Below are positions 43,694 through 64,000 of a DNA stretch of 64,000 nt, one piece after another. The notes beneath the pieces were generated by a model. It had not been told where the DNA came from. It made no database searches and saw only the letters and a list, made by a program, of their open reading frames with translations. Source of the DNA: Acidovorax sp. sif1233 (lineage in GTDB: Bacteria; Pseudomonadota; Gammaproteobacteria; Burkholderiales; Burkholderiaceae_C). Each line of letters starts with the position of its first letter. The first letter of the stretch is position 1. The stretch lies in the NCBI RefSeq assembly GCF_019218755.1, contig NZ_JAHUWZ010000001.1:930001-994000 (forward strand). Reading direction: 5' to 3'. A program made the translations under genes and the position numbers.

Positions 43694-46138
43694 TCAGGCG
43701 CCCAGGGGGGCGAACTGGCGGGTGTCCACCGCCGCCTTGTCGAACTCGAACCAGGGGTCGGGCTCGCCATCGAGCGCGAACTGCAGCTGCTCCCATAGGG
43801 CCTTGCGGCCTTCGTGGTCTTCGAGGATGCGTTTTTTGACGTAGTCCAGGCCCACGCGGTCCACGTAGTGCACGGTGCGCTCCAGGTACCAGCCTTCCTG
43901 GCGGTACAGCTCGCAGAACGCGCCCGTGTACTCCAGCACTTCTTCCGACGTCTTGAGCTTGGTGAAGAAGTGCGCCACCTCGGTCTTGATGCCGCCGTTG
44001 CCGGCCACGTACATCTCCCAGCCCGAGTCCACACCGATGATGCCCACGTCCTTGATGCCGGCCTCGGCGCAATTGCGCGGGCAGCCGCTCACGGCGAACT
44101 TGACCTTGTGCGGGGCGTACATGCGCCACATGGCGCGCTCCAGGTCCTTGCCCATCTGCGTGCTGTCCTGGGTGCCCATGCGGCACCACTCGCTGCCCAC
44201 GCAGGTCTTCACGGTGCGCAGGGCCTTGGCGTAGGCGTGGCCGCTGGGCATCCCGATGTCCTTCCACACGTTGACCAGGTCTTCCTTCTTCACGCCCAGC
44301 AAATCGATGCGCTGGCCTCCCGTGACCTTGACGGTGGGGATCTTGTACTTGTCCACCGCATCGGCGATGCGGCGCAGTTCGTCGGCCGTGGTCTCGCCGC
44401 CCCACATGCGCGGGATGACGCTGTAGGTGCCGTCTTTCTGGATGTTGGCGTGGCTGCGTTCGTTGATGAAGCGGCTTTGCGGGTCGTCCCTGGCCTCCTT
44501 GGGCCAGGTGCTGATGAGGTAGTAGTTGACCGCGGGGCGGCAGCTGGCGCAGCCGTTGGGCGTCTTCCATTCCATGAACCTGAACACGTCGGCGATGGTC
44601 ACCAGCTTGGCTGTGCGGATCGCATCGCGCACGGCCTGGTGGCCGTGGTCGGTGCAGCCGCACATGGCCTTGGTCTTGGGCGTGGCGCTGTAGTCGCCGC
44701 CCGCCGTGAACATGATGATCTGCTCCACCAGACCGGTGCACGAGCCGCAGGATGCGCTGGCCTTGGTGTGCTTGCGCACTTCGTCCAGCGTGAACAGGCC
44801 TTTTTCCTTGATGGCCTTGCAGATGGCGCCCTTGGTCACGCCGTTGCAGCCGCAGACCTCGTCGCTGTCCTGCATGGCGGCGGCCTTGCTCTGGCCCTGG
44901 TGGCCCGTGTCGCCCATGTTGGATTCGCCGAACATGAGCCGGTCGCGGATGTCGCTCACCGTGCGGCCGTCGCGCAGCAGCTTGAAGTACCAGCTGCCGT
45001 CCACCGTGTCGCCGTACAGGCACGCGCCCACGAGCTTGTCGTCCTTGAGCACCAGTTTCTTGTACACGCCGCCGAAGGGGTCGCTCATCACGATTTCCTC
45101 GGTGCCTTCGCCGCCCTGGAAGGCGCCGGCCGAGAACAGGTCGATGCCGGTGACCTTGAGCTTGGTGGAGGTCAGTGAGCCCTGGTAGCGGCCGATGCCG
45201 AACTCGGCCAGGTGGTTGGCCAGCACCTTGCCCTGCTCGAACAGCGGGGCCACCAAGCCATAGGCGATGCCCCGGTGCGCGGCGCACTCGCCCACGGCGT
45301 AGATGCGCGCGTCGGTGGTGGTCTGCAGCGTGTCGCTCACCACAATGCCGCGGTTCACGTGCAGACGCATCTTTTCAGCCAGCGCGGTGTTGGGACGGAT
45401 GCCCACGGCCATCACCACGAGGTCGGCGGGCACCTCGGTGCCGTCCTTGAATTTCACACTGGCCACGCGGCCATCGGCGTTGCCCACGAGTTCCTGCGTC
45501 TGCGCGCCGATCAGGAACTGCATGCCGCGCTGCTGCAGCGAATCCTGCAGCATCTTGCCCGCCACGTCGTCGAGCTGGCGCTCCATGAGCCAGCCCGCCA
45601 CGTGCACCACGGTGACCTGCATGCCGCGCCTCATGAGGCCGTTGGCGGCCTCCAGGCCCAGCAGGCCGCCGCCGATGACCACGGCGTGTTTGTAGGTGGC
45701 GGCGGCGTCGATCATCGCCTGGGTGTCGGCGATGTCGCGGTAGGCCAGCACACCCTTCAAGTCCTTGCCCGGCACGGGCAGGATGAACGGGTTCGAGCCG
45801 GTGGCCATGATCAGGCGGTCGTATTCGGCGGTGATCACATCGCCTGCGGCACTGGTCGCGCTGACCACGCGGCGCACGCGGTCCACGTCGGTCACCGTGA
45901 AGCCGGTGTGCAGCGTGATGTGGTTGTCGGCATACCAGGACCAGTCGTTCAGAATGATCTCGTCGATGGTCTGCTCGCCGGCCAGCACGGGCGAGAGCAG
46001 GATGCGGTTGTAGTTGGGATGCGGCTCGGCGCCGAACACCGTGATGTCGTACAGATCGGGGGCAATCTTGAGCAGCTCTTCCAGCGTGCGCACACCGGCC
46101 ATGCCGTTCCCCACCATCACCAGCTTGAGCTTTTTCAT
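43694..46138 (-). CDS. nirB: NAD(P)H-nitrite reductase large subunit NirB
   Basis: An 814-residue cytoplasmic enzyme. It starts MKKLKLVMVGNGMAGVRTLEELL (FAD fold), with VVIGGGLLGLEAANGLMRRG (NAD fold). BFD-like [2Fe-2S] cysteines are in CGCNGVTKGAICKAI and CGSCTGLVEQI. The sirohaem/[4Fe-4S] domain carries TCVGSEWCRMGTQDSTQMG and SGCPRNCAEAG. With NirD it makes the six-electron reduction of nitrite to ammonium. First gene of the operon; its leader carries an attenuator and hexaloop hairpin behind a sigma-54 promoter. Confidence 0.97.
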   Translation of the reverse strand: MKKLKLVMVGNGMAGVRTLEELLKIAPDLYDITVFGAEPHPNYNRILLSPVLAGEQTIDEIILNDWSWYADNHITLHTGFTVTDVDRVRRVVSATSAAGDVITAEYDRLIMATGSNPFILPVPGKDLKGVLAYRDIADTQAMIDAAATYKHAVVIGGGLLGLEAANGLMRRGMQVTVVHVAGWLMERQLDDVAGKMLQDSLQQRGMQFLIGAQTQELVGNADGRVASVKFKDGTEVPADLVVMAVGIRPNTALAEKMRLHVNRGIVVSDTLQTTTDARIYAVGECAAHRGIAYGLVAPLFEQGKVLANHLAEFGIGRYQGSLTSTKLKVTGIDLFSAGAFQGGEGTEEIVMSDPFGGVYKKLVLKDDKLVGACLYGDTVDGSWYFKLLRDGRTVSDIRDRLMFGESNMGDTGHQGQSKAAAMQDSDEVCGCNGVTKGAICKAIKEKGLFTLDEVRKHTKASASCGSCTGLVEQIIMFTAGGDYSATPKTKAMCGCTDHGHQAVRDAIRTAKLVTIADVFRFMEWKTPNGCASCRPAVNYYLISTWPKEARDDPQSRFINERSHANIQKDGTYSVIPRMWGGETTADELRRIADAVDKYKIPTVKVTGGQRIDLLGVKKEDLVNVWKDIGMPSGHAYAKALRTVKTCVGSEWCRMGTQDSTQMGKDLERAMWRMYAPHKVKFAVSGCPRNCAEAGIKDVGIIGVDSGWEMYVAGNGGIKTEVAHFFTKLKTSEEVLEYTGAFCELYRQEGWYLERTVHYVDRVGLDYVKKRILEDHEGRKALWEQLQFALDGEPDPWFEFDKAAVDTRQFAPLGA

Positions 46139-46173
46139 CGTGACTCCGTCCGTTGCGCCGCCGGGGCGGCGCG

Positions 46174-46243
46174 AAAAACAAAAAAGGCGTCCACACGATG
46201 CTGCTTCGAATGCGATTCGAAACGGCATGTGGGGACGCCTTTG
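46174..46243 (-). terminator. Attenuator hairpin in the nirB leader
   Basis: On the minus strand AAAGGCGTCC (46242-46233) pairs with GGACGCCTTT (46192-46183) and is followed by TTTTTTGTTTTT. The loop holds a second perfect hairpin, TTCGAAT-CGC-ATTCGAA. It lies 36 bp before the nirB start and after the promoter, so it would stop transcription unless an antiterminator acts. Confidence 0.88.
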
Positions 46244-46259
46244 TCCGTACAACTCCTCG

Positions 46260-46273
46260 GTGCGCCATTGCAC
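46260..46273 (-). promoter_or_regulatory. Leader hairpin with AAUGGC hexaloop, candidate ANTAR (NasT/NasR) target
   Basis: On the minus strand GTGC-AATGGC-GCAC forms a 4 bp stem with a six-base loop having A at position 1 and G at position 4, the known rule for ANTAR-bound hairpins. It lies about 40 nt into the predicted nirB leader and 17 bp before the attenuator. The stem is short and the second hairpin of the usual pair is not obvious. Confidence 0.55.
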
Positions 46274-46312
46274 GGCTGAATTGCGGGACCCCGCAGGGTC
46301 GTTGCCTACGTT

Positions 46313-46329
46313 AAGCAATGCTTGTGCCA
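46313..46329 (-). promoter_or_regulatory. Sigma-54 (-24/-12) promoter of the nirB operon
   Basis: On the minus strand TGGCACAAGCATTGCTT has GG and GC elements separated by exactly 10 bp, matching the RpoN consensus TGGCAC-N5-TTGCT. The predicted start near 46303 gives a leader of about 165 nt. NtrC control under nitrogen limitation would be expected; an NtrC site has not been identified. Confidence 0.85.
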
Positions 46330-46470
46330 GTCGCCCTGCACGCATCTGGGGCGCGGGCTGGCGCCGGGCCCGGAGAATGGGGCAGGCCGGGGCCGGACCC
46401 GTGCCGCCCCGCGCCCCCGGCGGGCGCGGCATGCACCACCTTGGGCATGAAACCTGCATGGAGCTGGTGC

Positions 46471-48234
46471 ATGAGTTTTGAACTGGACTTTGGCTACACC
46501 TCGCAGGCCGGGCGCAAGGCGTTGAACGAGGACTTCGCCGCGCTGGTGTCCGGGCAGGGGCGCGAGCGCGAGCGGGGTGCCATCGCCGCCATCGCCGATG
46601 GCGTGAGCACGGGCGGCAACGGCCGCGAGGCCGCCCAGACCACGGTCAACACGCTGGTGAACGACTACTTCGCCACGCCCGACACCTGGGACACCACGGT
46701 GGCGCTGGACCGCATCCTGTCCGCCCACAACGGCTGGCTCGCGTCCATGAACCGGCGCCGCCAGCCCGCGGTGGGGCTGACCACCGTGACCGCGCTGGTG
46801 CTGCGCGGCCAGTCGTATACGCTGGCCCATGTGGGCGACACGCGGGCCTACCTGCTGCGCGGCGGCCGGCTGCAGCAGCTGACCGCCGACCACGTGATGT
46901 CGCAGCACGACTTCGCCCACCAGCTCACCCGCGCCATGGGCCTGGATGACCATGTGGTGGTGGACTACAGCCAGGGCGAACTGCACAGCGGCGACCTGTT
47001 CGTGCTGCTCTCCGATGGCGTGCACGGCAGCCTTCCCGTGCGCGAACTGCGCCAGCTGCTGCGCCAGGGCGGGCCGGCGCAGGCCCTGAGCGACGGGCTG
47101 GTGCAGGCCGCGCTGCGCCGTGGCAGCAGCGACAACGTGACCGCGCTGATCGTGCAGGTGCAGGGCGTTCTGGAGGCCACGCTGCAGGATGAATCCCGCC
47201 GTGCGCAGGACCTGCCCGTGCTGCCCCTGCTCAAGGTGGGCGACACCGTGGATGGCCTCACGGTGACGGCCCTGGTGGCCGACAGCGGCATCCACCGCAT
47301 CTACCAGGTGCGCGACGGGGCCACGCAGCGGCTGTATGCCCTCAAGACCCTGCTGCCCGCGCGCGCCCACGACCTGGAAGAGCGCGCCACGCTGGCGCAC
47401 GAGGCCTGGGTGGCGCGGCGCATGCAGTCGGGCCAGGCCGCAGCCCATCTGGCGCGGCTCAACGACTGGCCATTGGGTGCCACCGGCACGGGCGACGGCG
47501 CGGGGACCAGCGCGTTTTACCTGCTGTACGACTGGCATTCCGGCGACACGCTGGGGCAGCGCCTGCGCCACCGCCAGCACCTGGCCGTGGGGCAGGCCGT
47601 GACGGTGACCGTGCAGGCCGCGCGCGTGCTGGGCTGGCTGCACCGCCAGGGCGTGGTGCACCGCGACATCAAGCCCGACAACCTGCACCTGGGCGACGAC
47701 GGCGTGCTGCGCGTGCTGGACCTGGGCGTGGCCCTCTCGGGCCGCGAGCCCGAGGCCACGCGCCGCCTGCACGCGGGCACCCCCAGCTACATGAACCCCG
47801 AGCAGTGGCCGGGCTACGAACGCAACGGCGATCCCGCCGGCCAGCTGCCCGACGCGGGCAGCGACCTGTTCGCGCTGGGTGTCACGCTGTACCAGCTGCT
47901 CAGCCACGGGCGCCTGCCCTATGGCGAGGTGGTGCAGTACCAGCTGGGCCGCTACCACCGCGACCCCGTGGCCCCCAGCCGCCACAATCCGGGCGTGCCC
48001 ATCTGGCTCGACCAGATCGCCCTGAAGGCCGTGGCGCGCCACCGCGCGCAGCGCTTCGAGACGGCGGAGGAGCTGCTGCTGGCCCTGGAGCGCGGCGCGT
48101 CGCGGCCCCTGTCGGCCCCCGGCCCCCAGCCCCTGATGCAGCGCGATGCCACGGCCCTGTGGAAGATCGCGCTCGCGGTAAGCGTGCTGGTGAATCTGCT
48201 GCTGATCTACTGGCTGCTGTTCCTGCCCCGGTAG
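46471..48234 (+). CDS. Fused PP2C phosphatase and Ser/Thr protein kinase with C-terminal membrane anchor
   Basis: A 587-residue protein. Residues 1-240 form a PP2C-type phosphatase: NEDFAAL, ADGVSTGGNG with Asp43, GDTRAYLL, LSDGVHGSL and SDNVTALIV. Residues about 265-545 form a Hanks-type kinase with Lys292 (YALKTLL), catalytic Asp399 in HRDIKPDNL, DLG at 417 in place of DFG and a weak glycine loop. A single helix (about 563-582, IALAVSVLVNLLLIYWLLFL) ends it, so both domains face the cytoplasm. It lies between the divergent nirB and the convergent narK genes, hinting at phospho-control of nitrate uptake or assimilation. The start MSFELDFGYTSQ is preferred to earlier in-frame ATGs. Confidence 0.9.
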   Translation: MSFELDFGYTSQAGRKALNEDFAALVSGQGRERERGAIAAIADGVSTGGNGREAAQTTVNTLVNDYFATPDTWDTTVALDRILSAHNGWLASMNRRRQPAVGLTTVTALVLRGQSYTLAHVGDTRAYLLRGGRLQQLTADHVMSQHDFAHQLTRAMGLDDHVVVDYSQGELHSGDLFVLLSDGVHGSLPVRELRQLLRQGGPAQALSDGLVQAALRRGSSDNVTALIVQVQGVLEATLQDESRRAQDLPVLPLLKVGDTVDGLTVTALVADSGIHRIYQVRDGATQRLYALKTLLPARAHDLEERATLAHEAWVARRMQSGQAAAHLARLNDWPLGATGTGDGAGTSAFYLLYDWHSGDTLGQRLRHRQHLAVGQAVTVTVQAARVLGWLHRQGVVHRDIKPDNLHLGDDGVLRVLDLGVALSGREPEATRRLHAGTPSYMNPEQWPGYERNGDPAGQLPDAGSDLFALGVTLYQLLSHGRLPYGEVVQYQLGRYHRDPVAPSRHNPGVPIWLDQIALKAVARHRAQRFETAEELLLALERGASRPLSAPGPQPLMQRDATALWKIALAVSVLVNLLLIYWLLFLPR

Positions 48235-48251
48235 GGGGCGGCAATGGTAGT

Positions 48252-48318
48252 GTTTTGCTATTGAAAACATAGCTGCTGGCGCCGATGGAGAAAGCGCCAG
48301 GGCCTGTTTTTCCTTCAA
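48252..48318. repeat. AGCGCTT-type palindromic repeat copy after the kinase gene (diverged)
   Basis: TTTTGCTATTGAAAACATAG, then CTGCTGGCGCCGATGGAGAA, then AGCGCCAGGGCCTGTTTTTC. The arms TGGCGC and GCGCCA pair. It is a diverged member of the family in the intergenic gap after the kinase gene. Confidence 0.8.
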
Positions 48319-48358
48319 GATAACATCGCGGTGGTGCGCGGCCTCTGAAGCCGCCCCG

Positions 48359-48389
48359 GCCCCTGCGGGGATGCCGGGCAGGGGCTTTT
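48359..48389 (+). terminator. Probable intrinsic terminator after the kinase gene
   Basis: GCCCCTG (48359-48365) and CAGGGGC (48379-48385) form a 7 bp stem with a 13-nt loop. TTTTCC follows. It is weaker than the other terminators listed. Confidence 0.6.
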
Positions 48390-48449
48390 CCTTTCGGGCG
48401 GCCCGTGCCCGCGCCTCCGTGGGCAGGCACAAGGCAAGGCCGCAACGCC

Positions 48450-49667
48450 TCAGGAGGAAGTCCTGGCCCGTCCGCCGCGTTCGGCCCAGGTCCGCGTCCA
48501 GCGGATCTGCATCACGCGCAGCAGCAGCAGCATGGCCAGCGCACACACCGCGATGCCCACGAAACCCCACAGGTAAGTGCCCGTGTACTGGCGCGAGATG
48601 CCCATGCCGTTGGGGATGAGGCCGCCGCCCAGCGCGCCGATCTCACCGATCATCGAGCCCGCCACCGCCGTGGTCAGCGGCCAGCGCAGCGGCACCAGCT
48701 GGAACAGTGCGCCATTGCCCGCGCCCAGCGCTGCAAAACACACCAGGAACAGCAGCATGGTGATGGGCAGCGAGTTCTCTGCCAGGCCACACAGCACCAT
48801 GCTCACGGCCGTGATGGCGAGCACGCCCGTCAGTGTGTTGACGCCGCCCCAGTGGTCCGACAGCCAGCCGCCGAATATGCGCAGGGCCGCGCCCAGAAAG
48901 GCCGCCATCATCGTGAGCTGGCCTGCCTGCACCTTGCTCACGCTGAACTGGTCGTAGAAGTAGCTGGGCAAAAAGGCGGTCAGGCCGATGAAGCCGCCAA
49001 ACGTCACGGCGTAGATCAGGCTGAAGGCCCAGCCGTCCTTCTCGAACAGGCAGGCAATGTGTTCACGAAAGCTGCTGTGGGCCGCGAGGTCTGGAGGTTC
49101 CTTCGCGTAGACGGCCATCACCAGCGCGGGGATGGCCACGCTCACGGCGGCAAAGCCATACACGGCCTGCCAGCCGAACTTTTGCGCCAGTGCGGGGGCG
49201 AGCAGCGCGGCCACCGCCGTACCCACGTTGCCGGCGCCCACGATGCCCATGGCCAGGCCCTTGTAGCGCGGCGGAAACGAGCCCGAACCCAGCGACAGCG
49301 CCACGCCAAAGCTGGCGCCCGCCACGCCCAGCAGGATGCCCATGGCCAGCAGGTCGTTGTAGGTGTGCACGAACATGTAGCCAAAGCCCATGGCCAGGAA
49401 GATGCCGGCCATCTCGACCAGCGTGGCGTTCTTGCGGCCGATGTACTGCGCCAGGATGCCCAGCGGAAAACGCATGAGCGCGCCCGCGAAGATGGGGATG
49501 GACAGCATCATGCCCATCTGCGTGGGGGTGAGCTGGAAGGCCTCGCGGATGAACGGCGCCATGGCACCGTTGATCACCCAGATTGCGCACGAGAAACCGA
49601 AATACAAAAAGGACGACCACAGCGTGGGCGCGTGGCCGGACTTGAGGAACTCGCGAAATTGAAGCAT
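48450..49667 (-). CDS. narK: NarK/NasA-type nitrate/nitrite transporter (MFS)
   Basis: A 405-residue, 12-helix major facilitator. Start MLQFREFLKSGHAPTLWSSF. Nitrate-porter features are FPLGILAQYIGRKNATL (MFS loop motif), GVAGASFGVALSLGSGSFPP, GIVGAGNVGTAVAALLAPAL and AALGAGNGALFQLVPLRWP (Gly/Asn nitrate signature). With an ABC nitrate system at the window end, it gives a second uptake route. Its leader has the same promoter-hairpin-attenuator arrangement as nirB, so the two are co-regulated. Confidence 0.94.
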   Translation of the reverse strand: MLQFREFLKSGHAPTLWSSFLYFGFSCAIWVINGAMAPFIREAFQLTPTQMGMMLSIPIFAGALMRFPLGILAQYIGRKNATLVEMAGIFLAMGFGYMFVHTYNDLLAMGILLGVAGASFGVALSLGSGSFPPRYKGLAMGIVGAGNVGTAVAALLAPALAQKFGWQAVYGFAAVSVAIPALVMAVYAKEPPDLAAHSSFREHIACLFEKDGWAFSLIYAVTFGGFIGLTAFLPSYFYDQFSVSKVQAGQLTMMAAFLGAALRIFGGWLSDHWGGVNTLTGVLAITAVSMVLCGLAENSLPITMLLFLVCFAALGAGNGALFQLVPLRWPLTTAVAGSMIGEIGALGGGLIPNGMGISRQYTGTYLWGFVGIAVCALAMLLLLRVMQIRWTRTWAERGGRARTSS

Positions 49668-49724
49668 GGCGATCTTGCGCAAAAGGGCCGTGGTGCCTGC
49701 CGCAAGCACACCCCAGCCGGGCAG

Positions 49725-49793
49725 AAAAACAAAAAGGCGCCTGCATGGACTGCTCGGGCTGTGTCCCAGCCTGTGCCTGCCCATGAAGACGCC
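49725..49793 (-). terminator. Attenuator hairpin in the narK leader
   Basis: On the minus strand GGCGTCTTCATGG (49793-49781) pairs with CCATGCAGGCGCC (49748-49736) over 13 positions with one mismatch and one G-U. TTTTTGTTTTT follows. The loop contains GGCTG-GGACA-CAGCC. Its outer stem (GGCGTC), the T-run and the presence of an inner hairpin match the nirB attenuator, though the inner stem sequence differs. Confidence 0.88.
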
Positions 49794-49835
49794 AACGTCC
49801 TGTTCGCCCAATCCGCCGTTGCACCGGGCTGACAC

Positions 49836-49853
49836 GCGGCCCGCATTGGCCGC
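49836..49853 (-). promoter_or_regulatory. Leader hairpin with AAUGCG hexaloop, candidate ANTAR target
   Basis: On the minus strand GCGGCC-AATGCG-GGCCGC is a perfect 6 bp stem with a hexaloop that has A1 and G4, the ANTAR recognition rule. It begins at the predicted transcription start. Its loop shares AAUG with the nirB leader hairpin. Confidence 0.7.
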
Positions 49854-49863
49854 AGGCTTCCTC

Positions 49864-49880
49864 AAGCAATGGCTGTGCCA
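49864..49880 (-). promoter_or_regulatory. Sigma-54 (-24/-12) promoter of narK
   Basis: On the minus strand TGGCACAGCCATTGCTT has GG and GC 10 bp apart and differs from the nirB promoter at only two of 17 positions. The predicted start near 49853 gives a leader of about 185 nt. The rest of the 49882-50184 gap shows no gene or site I can support. Confidence 0.87.
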
Positions 49881-63851: not shown

Positions 63852-64000
63852 TTACGCCTTGATCTTGAAGCTGTCGGCGTACTTGGCGGGGTCCTTGCCG
63901 TCCCACACCACGCCGTCCATGAACTTGCTCGTACGCATTTCGCTCTTGGGCAGCGGTGTCTTGGAAGCGGTGGCCGCCTGCTTGTAGACGTCGATGCGGT
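63852..64000 (-). CDS. nrtA: C-terminal end of nitrate-binding protein NrtA (partial)
   Basis: The minus-strand frame is open from the window edge to TAA at 63852 and gives 49 residues ending TPLPKSEMRTSKFMDGVVWDGKDPAKYADSFKIKA. This tail is typical of NrtA/CmpA-type nitrate/bicarbonate binding proteins, whose genes precede nrtB. The body, the signal peptide and the ligand residues lie beyond the window. Confidence 0.85.
   Translation of the reverse strand, partial: RIDVYKQAATASKTPLPKSEMRTSKFMDGVVWDGKDPAKYADSFKIKA

Follow-up and report, generated by a model that had tools for sequence, protein, structure and literature searches.

What controls the nitrate-assimilation genes nirB and narK of Acidovorax sp. 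sif1233, and by what route could nitrate reach them? Both genes lie in the window analysed here, the whole 64-kb stretch C11:930001-994000 of a 5.76-Mb assembly with a completeness score of 100%, and the nrtA gene runs across its edge. A first-pass annotation of the window had noted that nirB and narK share a sigma-54 promoter, a leader with a hexaloop hairpin and an attenuator, and had read this as dual control by NtrC/RpoN and the ANTAR-domain antiterminator NasT. Our analysis confirmed the observation and supports the interpretation with amendments: nirB, narK and nrtA very probably form one nitrate-assimilation regulon under dual control, in which a sigma-54 promoter is combined with an ANTAR antitermination leader.

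Each of the two genes in the window is preceded by an exact match to the -24/-12 pattern TGGCAC-N5-TTGC, and these were the only two exact matches in the 64 kb, in line with the near-identical promoters described earlier. The same pattern occurred 22 times in the whole genome, versus 6 times for a reversed control pattern. When -24/-12 sites with one mismatch were counted across the window, no excess over chance was found, and the promoter evidence therefore rests on position and conservation. Among relatives the site lay 65-123 nucleotides (nt), mostly 80-95 nt, 5' of the terminator-overlapping hairpin described below as P2. RpoN is encoded in the genome, and the motif, its spacing and its position are those of sigma-54 promoters. 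Assuming that transcription starts about 12 nt past the -12 element, the leaders would be about 165 nt (nirB) and 187 nt (narK) long, close to the 165-185 nt given previously. NtrC control of these promoters is plausible from the sequence: NtrC-like sites with no more than two mismatches were present 5' of 27 of 69 leaders versus 2.2% of shuffled regions, the related loci not being independent, and within the window the count of the motif was not above chance.

The RNA targets of ANTAR proteins are pairs of hexaloop hairpins in which the first loop base is A and the fourth is G (the A1/G4 rule) and the second hairpin overlaps a terminator (PMC3369931, PMC8934654). The nirB leader contains two hexaloop hairpins and the narK and nrtA leaders contain three (Table 1). 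The single AAUGNN hairpin per leader reported by the first-pass annotation is present in both cases, but the additional hairpins had been missed, among them P2, which overlaps the 5' arm of the terminator. The terminators of nirB and narK both have GGCGUC stems followed by U runs, as had been described, and their hairpin segments proved much more stable in folding than dinucleotide shuffles (fold z-scores in Table 1). When both strands of the window were scanned for hexaloop hairpins having bases in common with a terminator 5' arm, exactly two matches were obtained, the nirB and narK leaders, and a scan of the window with Rfam 15 returned no matching family. As nirB P2 and the terminator 5' arm have AAAGGCGUCC in common, the two structures are mutually exclusive; P2 appears in the minimum free energy fold once the RNA ends before the terminator 3' arm. 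Both nirB loops, AAUGGC and AAAGGC, follow the A1/G4 rule. The inner part of narK P1 reads GGUGC-AACGGC-GGAUU, and distal hairpins of the narK P0 type were found in 24 distinct sequences from relatives, with compensatory changes. Judged by sequence, the nirB and narK leaders have the layout of an ANTAR dual-hexaloop antiterminator.

Conservation of this layout was assessed in a collection of leaders drawn from three sources. A query with the product of the kinase/phosphatase gene that lies between nirB and narK retrieved 80 loci from Acidovorax, Polaromonas, Hydrogenophaga, Rhodoferax, Curvibacter and others; these were combined with loci around ANTAR genes of the family and with the genome itself. 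This yielded 80 leaders of the same type, nearly all in relatives (Acidovorax, Polaromonas, Curvibacter, Rhodoferax and others), located 5' of nirB, narK and nrtA. When 34 leaders were aligned, 92.8% of the P1 and P2 cells were paired; the figure was 82.4% in shuffled alignments and 35-61% when the structure was slid. Within P1 and P2, two-sided changes numbered 29 versus 9.8 in shuffles, and the covariation score of 0.331 versus 0.147 was matched by none of 500 shuffles. The P2 stem switches as a unit from GGAC/GUCC to GAAC/GUUC, and P2 and the terminator are kept in register across relatives. Since A1 and G4 of the P1 loop were imposed by the search rule, they are not independent evidence. 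The rule for P2 demanded a purine at loop position 1 and GGC at positions 4-6, and within it the distinct P2 sequences of all leaders comprised 42 with G1 and 28 with A1. The A1 rule is thus not strict, and position 1 of the P2 loop is occupied by A or G.

A covariance model, R1, whose training alignment included both the nirB and narK leaders, was applied to 151 family genomes, 48 of which contained matches. R1 recovered both leaders in the Acidovorax sp. sif1233 genome (nirB, E = 5e-10; narK, E = 1e-7) and no third target there better than E = 0.14. As R1 misses the nrtA leader, which has different spacing and three hairpins, and also a leader on contig C23 described below, it is not exhaustive. 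Of the 55 matches outside this genome, 30 had a same-strand ANTAR gene 82-765 nt upstream, and wherever a match shared its contig with a listed ANTAR gene, as 47 did, the two were no more than 20 kb apart; the few training sequences among the matches favour the linkage figure slightly, too little to matter. The architecture of the element, its conservation and covariation, and its genomic linkage with an ANTAR gene are direct observations.

Two ANTAR genes are encoded in the genome (79 and 77 bits; cut-off 27), so that the absence of any such regulator, which the first-pass annotation had named as fatal to its proposal, did not occur. Neither nasS nor nasT lies inside the window, as had been stated. 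When the region upstream of nrtA beyond position 64000 was searched, as had been recommended, a NasT-like gene was found directly upstream of nrtA, though nasS was not. The encoded protein shares about 40% identity with Paracoccus NasT; its ANTAR domain scores above the cut-off and its receiver domain is weak (E = 9e-4, under the cut-off). In Paracoccus NasT, likewise, the ANTAR domain alone is called, and the combination of a receiver-like region and ANTAR that marks NasT is present here. At most about 20 kb separates the gene from nirB and narK. The gene is itself preceded, 29 nt before its ATG, by the sigma-54-like promoter TGGCGTAAAAATTGCT; such sites recur 5' of nasT in 8 of 34 loci under a strict pattern (about 0.3 expected) and in 15 of 34 under a looser one (about 1.5 expected), a pattern that suggests joint induction of NasT and its targets under nitrogen limitation.

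The second ANTAR protein, of 436 amino acids, is a NasR-like NIT-ANTAR protein encoded on contig C23 beside a second nirBD operon. Between its gene and the next, which resembles a formate/nitrite transporter gene, is a P2-like hexaloop hairpin (GGAU-AACGGC-GUCC) overlapping a terminator; no -24/-12 site was found for this leader. At several other loci (Table 1), a NasR-like NIT-ANTAR gene stands at the place of nasT, directly 5' of nrtA or an nrtA homolog. By sequence, then, the nrtA locus appears to have swapped regulators between NasT-like and NasR-like genes.

From these data we infer the transcription starts, the protein-RNA binding, the dependence on nitrate and the acting ANTAR protein of the following model. 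Sigma-54 RNA polymerase would initiate at TGGCAC-N5-TTGC when NtrC-type activators are active, that is, under nitrogen limitation. By default, transcription would end in the leader at the terminator hairpin and its U tract. An ANTAR protein bound to P1 and P2, each a short stem whose hexaloop starts with a purine and has G as its fourth base, would stabilise P2; P2 would then occupy the GGCGUC of the terminator 5' arm, block the terminator and permit read-through into the gene. The likeliest ANTAR protein is the NasT-like one encoded directly upstream of nrtA, with the NasR-like NIT-ANTAR protein of C23 as an alternative or additional candidate.

Several results weigh against this model of sigma-54 initiation followed by NasT-type antitermination. 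Paracoccus NasS, used as a query against the genome, found only NrtA (30% identity, 129 bits), and NasS was otherwise not found; with NasS missing, the known route to a nitrate-responsive NasT is missing as well. Two ANTAR proteins are encoded, and sequence alone assigns neither to the leaders. A conserved NtrC-like site exists for nirB only, none having been found upstream of narK. Of the dual control proposed earlier, the RpoN and ANTAR-target parts are supported, the latter with covariation; the NtrC part has a conserved candidate site at nirB only, and NasT has a second candidate beside it. Finally, the narK loops P0 (AAUGCG) and P1 (AACGGC) satisfy A1/G4, but P2 (GUUGGC) fails A1 and keeps G4. 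We therefore call the narK leader ANTAR-like with a relaxed P2 loop, and the A1/G4 rule invoked by the first-pass annotation holds for both nirB loops and narK P0 and P1, with position 1 relaxed to A or G in P2.

The absence of NasS was supported by a search of the genome with PF13379, in which a single protein, NrtA, scored strongly (347 bits; next 51). Paracoccus NasS, which is encoded beside its nasT, reaches 198 bits to the same family. NrtA has a twin-arginine signal (MTDLLKTSLNRRTVLQAATVG) and a permease gene next to its own, and thus looks exported; as a cytoplasmic NasS partner was not found, we have not filed the system as NasS-NasT. The Paracoccus query separates NasS from NrtA poorly in Burkholderia, and absence is therefore claimed for this genome only. 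Candidates for nitrate sensing are the NasR-like protein, another partner of NasT, or no sensing by NasT at all. It is conceivable, though we put it forward tentatively, that NasT here has lost its dedicated sensor NasS and that the leaders are served by interchangeable ANTAR regulators, namely stand-alone NasT, NIT-ANTAR (NasR) and, in sister genera, a receiver-ANTAR-PilJ fusion; nitrate might then signal by a new route, such as NrtA itself, cross-talk from NasR, or the product of the kinase/phosphatase gene that separates nirB from narK.

Whether the NasR-like protein rather than NasT acts on the leaders is a question that the missing NasS itself raises, as a NIT-ANTAR protein would sense nitrate directly and make NasS dispensable. 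The gene lies beside a second nirBD operon, with a P2-like hexaloop and terminator ahead of the next gene, and its homologs take the place of nasT in other genomes. However, the adjacent ANTAR gene is NasT-like in most relatives that have the leader, and in Acidovorax sp. sif1233 it is nasT that is linked to nrtA and close to nirB and narK, the NasR-like gene being on a separate contig; we regard this explanation as rather unlikely. We give about the same modest weight to a scheme in which NasT, having no NasS, is constitutively active and only its amount is controlled. The sigma-54-like promoter of nasT would then create a feed-forward loop under nitrogen limitation, with no nitrate signal passing through NasT, and both that promoter, with its recurrence in relatives, and the lack of NasS fit such a scheme. 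Yet an attenuator would add little if the condition that activates its promoter always relieved it as well, the deep conservation of the leader suggests a second signal, and a partner of NasT other than NasS may exist.

It is very improbable that the hexaloops are coincidental and the hairpins no more than normal terminators, or attenuators that depend on ribosomes or Rho. GC-rich leaders fold easily, and the terminator-free halves of these leaders are about as stable as shuffles (z about -1 to -1.5). Nevertheless, no minus-strand gene was identified upstream that such terminators could end, and the covariation, the shared register of P2 and the terminator arm, and the linkage to ANTAR genes in many genomes speak against coincidence. 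The preferred explanation thus remains a sigma-54 promoter followed by an ANTAR-responsive attenuator.

How do these leaders compare with known systems? According to a 2012 survey, many bacteria have ANTAR RNAs 5' of genes for nitrite reductases and nitrate transporters (PMC3369931), and that the Acidovorax leaders belong to this known kind of target is well supported; unusual are the missing NasS, G1 in P2 and the three hairpins of narK and nrtA. In P. denitrificans, NasT binds the nasA leader RNA (PMC3795266), and the Acidovorax system resembles this NasS-NasT pair (PMC3795266, PMC5424462) in its receiver-ANTAR NasT and its nitrate-assimilation leader with hairpins. In Paracoccus, however, nasT is followed by an overlapping nasS (seen in P. 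ferrooxidans), whereas in Acidovorax nasT is followed by nrtA. NasS-NasT has also been proposed for Pseudomonas (PMC3795266), and the P. aeruginosa nirBD-PA1779-cobA operon is described as controlled by leader antitermination (Romeo et al. 2012, as cited in PMC3795266). By its description, this nitrate-assimilation nirBD operon resembles the Acidovorax case; unlike in P. aeruginosa, narK and nrtA of Acidovorax are separate units that each bear such a leader, and NasS was not found. The P1/P2 hexaloops and terminator are shared with the Klebsiella NasR/nasF leader (PMC7496416; PMC3369931), and a NIT-ANTAR homolog is encoded in the Acidovorax genome, but the ANTAR gene linked to the Acidovorax operons is NasT-like rather than NasR-like. 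Two A1/G4 hexaloop hairpins, the second overlapping the terminator, also characterise the Enterococcus faecalis EutV antiterminator (PMC3369931, PMC8934654). Unlike EutV targets, leaders of the Acidovorax type often have G1 in P2, have three hairpins in narK and nrtA, follow a sigma-54 promoter and would respond to a different signal.

Table 1. Features of the nirB, narK and nrtA loci and of related loci; positions are those of the window unless a contig (C) or locus (L) is given.
Feature	Position	Strand	Basis or remark
nirB, NADH nitrite reductase large subunit	43694..46138	-	TIGR02374, 920 bits, above cut-off
nirB control region (promoter, hexaloop hairpins, terminator, start codon)	46138-46329	-	
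nirB attenuator, intrinsic terminator hairpin and U6GU5 tract (46185-46174)	46174..46242	-	fold z -5.4; scan match; arm covariation
nirB P2 hairpin, GGAC-AAAGGC-GUCC	46233..46246	-	overlaps terminator 5' arm; fold; invariant or compensated in relatives
nirB P1 hairpin, GUGC-AAUGGC-GCAC	46260..46273	-	RNA fold; P1 covariation
nirB sigma-54 promoter (-24/-12), TGGCACAAGCATTGC	46315..46329	-	exact TGGCAC-N5-TTGC; kept 80-88 nt 5' of P2 in most Acidovorax relatives
NtrC-like palindrome, TGCCCAAGGTGGTGCA (minus strand)	46432..46447	.	2 mismatches to TGCACYNNNNRGTGCA; about 118 nt 5' of nirB promoter; recurs in relatives
Fused PP2C phosphatase/Ser-Thr kinase gene, between nirB and narK, divergent from nirB	46474..48234	+	Pfam PF13672 and PF00069
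narK, NarK-family nitrate/nitrite major facilitator superfamily (MFS) transporter	48450..49667	-	top NCBIfam match TIGR00886, 218 bits, under cut-off 312; MFS_1 above cut-off
narK control region (same elements as for nirB)	49667-49880	-	
narK attenuator, terminator hairpin GGCGUCU/AGGCGCC and U5GU5	49725..49793	-	fold z -4.7; scan match
narK P2 hairpin, GGAC-GUUGGC-GUCU	49787..49800	-	G at loop position 1; overlaps terminator 5' arm; scan, alignment
narK P1 hairpin, GCCCGGUGC-AACGGC-GGAUUGGGC	49806..49829	-	one G.G mismatch; sequence, fold; aligns as nirB P1 counterpart
narK P0 hairpin, UGCGGCC-AAUGCG-GGCCGCG	49835..49854	-	hexaloop of first-pass annotation; distal hairpin type in relatives
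narK sigma-54 promoter, TGGCACAGCCATTGC	49866..49880	-	exact TGGCAC-N5-TTGC; kept about 80 nt 5' of P2 in narK relatives
nrtA 3' end	63855..64000	-	nrtA leader and nasT beyond window edge
nrtA leader	C11:995100-995300		promoter TGGCACGCCACTTGC; loops AAUGGC, AAAGGC, AGAGGC; terminator GGCGUCC/GGACGCC-U6GU4
NasT-like gene	C11:995641-996267		1.6 kb beyond window edge
nasT sigma-54-like promoter	L003 6281-6296	-	
C23 locus of this genome	L004 2784-4094 and about 2533	-	second nirBD operon region with NasR-like gene
NasR-like NIT-ANTAR gene at nasT place	L135, L138, L142, L144, L147, L100, L086, L079		directly 5' of nrtA or nrtA homolog
PilJ-fusion loci	L063, L064, L065, L076-L079, L081, L083, L084, L086, L087, L091, L094, L096-L099, L105, L108, L109, L118, L119		e.g. 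L076 6689-7924 +
Loci with fixed nirB hairpin pair	L063, L064, L076, L078, L083, L084, L087, L094, L098, L099, L105, L108		

The fused kinase/phosphatase of the window has its top matches in Acidovorax, and its gene was found again near nirB in many relatives. Among the 80 kinase loci, 23 (in Polaromonas, Hydrogenophaga, Rhodoferax and others) also encode a receiver-ANTAR-PilJ fusion, mostly between nirB and the kinase gene. The PilJ domain is cited as binding nitrate in McpN (cited in PMC8199190), and the fusion may therefore be a one-protein nitrate-sensing antiterminator; a literature search on ANTAR, PilJ and nitrate found no description of such a fusion. At 12 of these PilJ-ANTAR loci, and at no other kinase locus, the -24/-12 site of nirB is followed by two 6-bp hairpins at the fixed positions +33 and +75-78. 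Their loops are AANGNN, mostly AACGAC, and at these 12 loci no obvious terminator overlaps the second hairpin. The fusion may have an RNA target of its own that works without a classical terminator.

The analysis adds an RNA element outside the families of Rfam 15, together with a covariance model that finds it across the family. The frequency of G1 in P2 suggests that searches applying a strict A1/G4 rule miss many real targets, and the leaders raise the question of how NasT might sense nitrate without NasS. For Acidovorax and other Comamonadaceae, they point to a testable two-signal circuit in which the use of nitrate would depend on both nitrogen starvation and an ANTAR signal.

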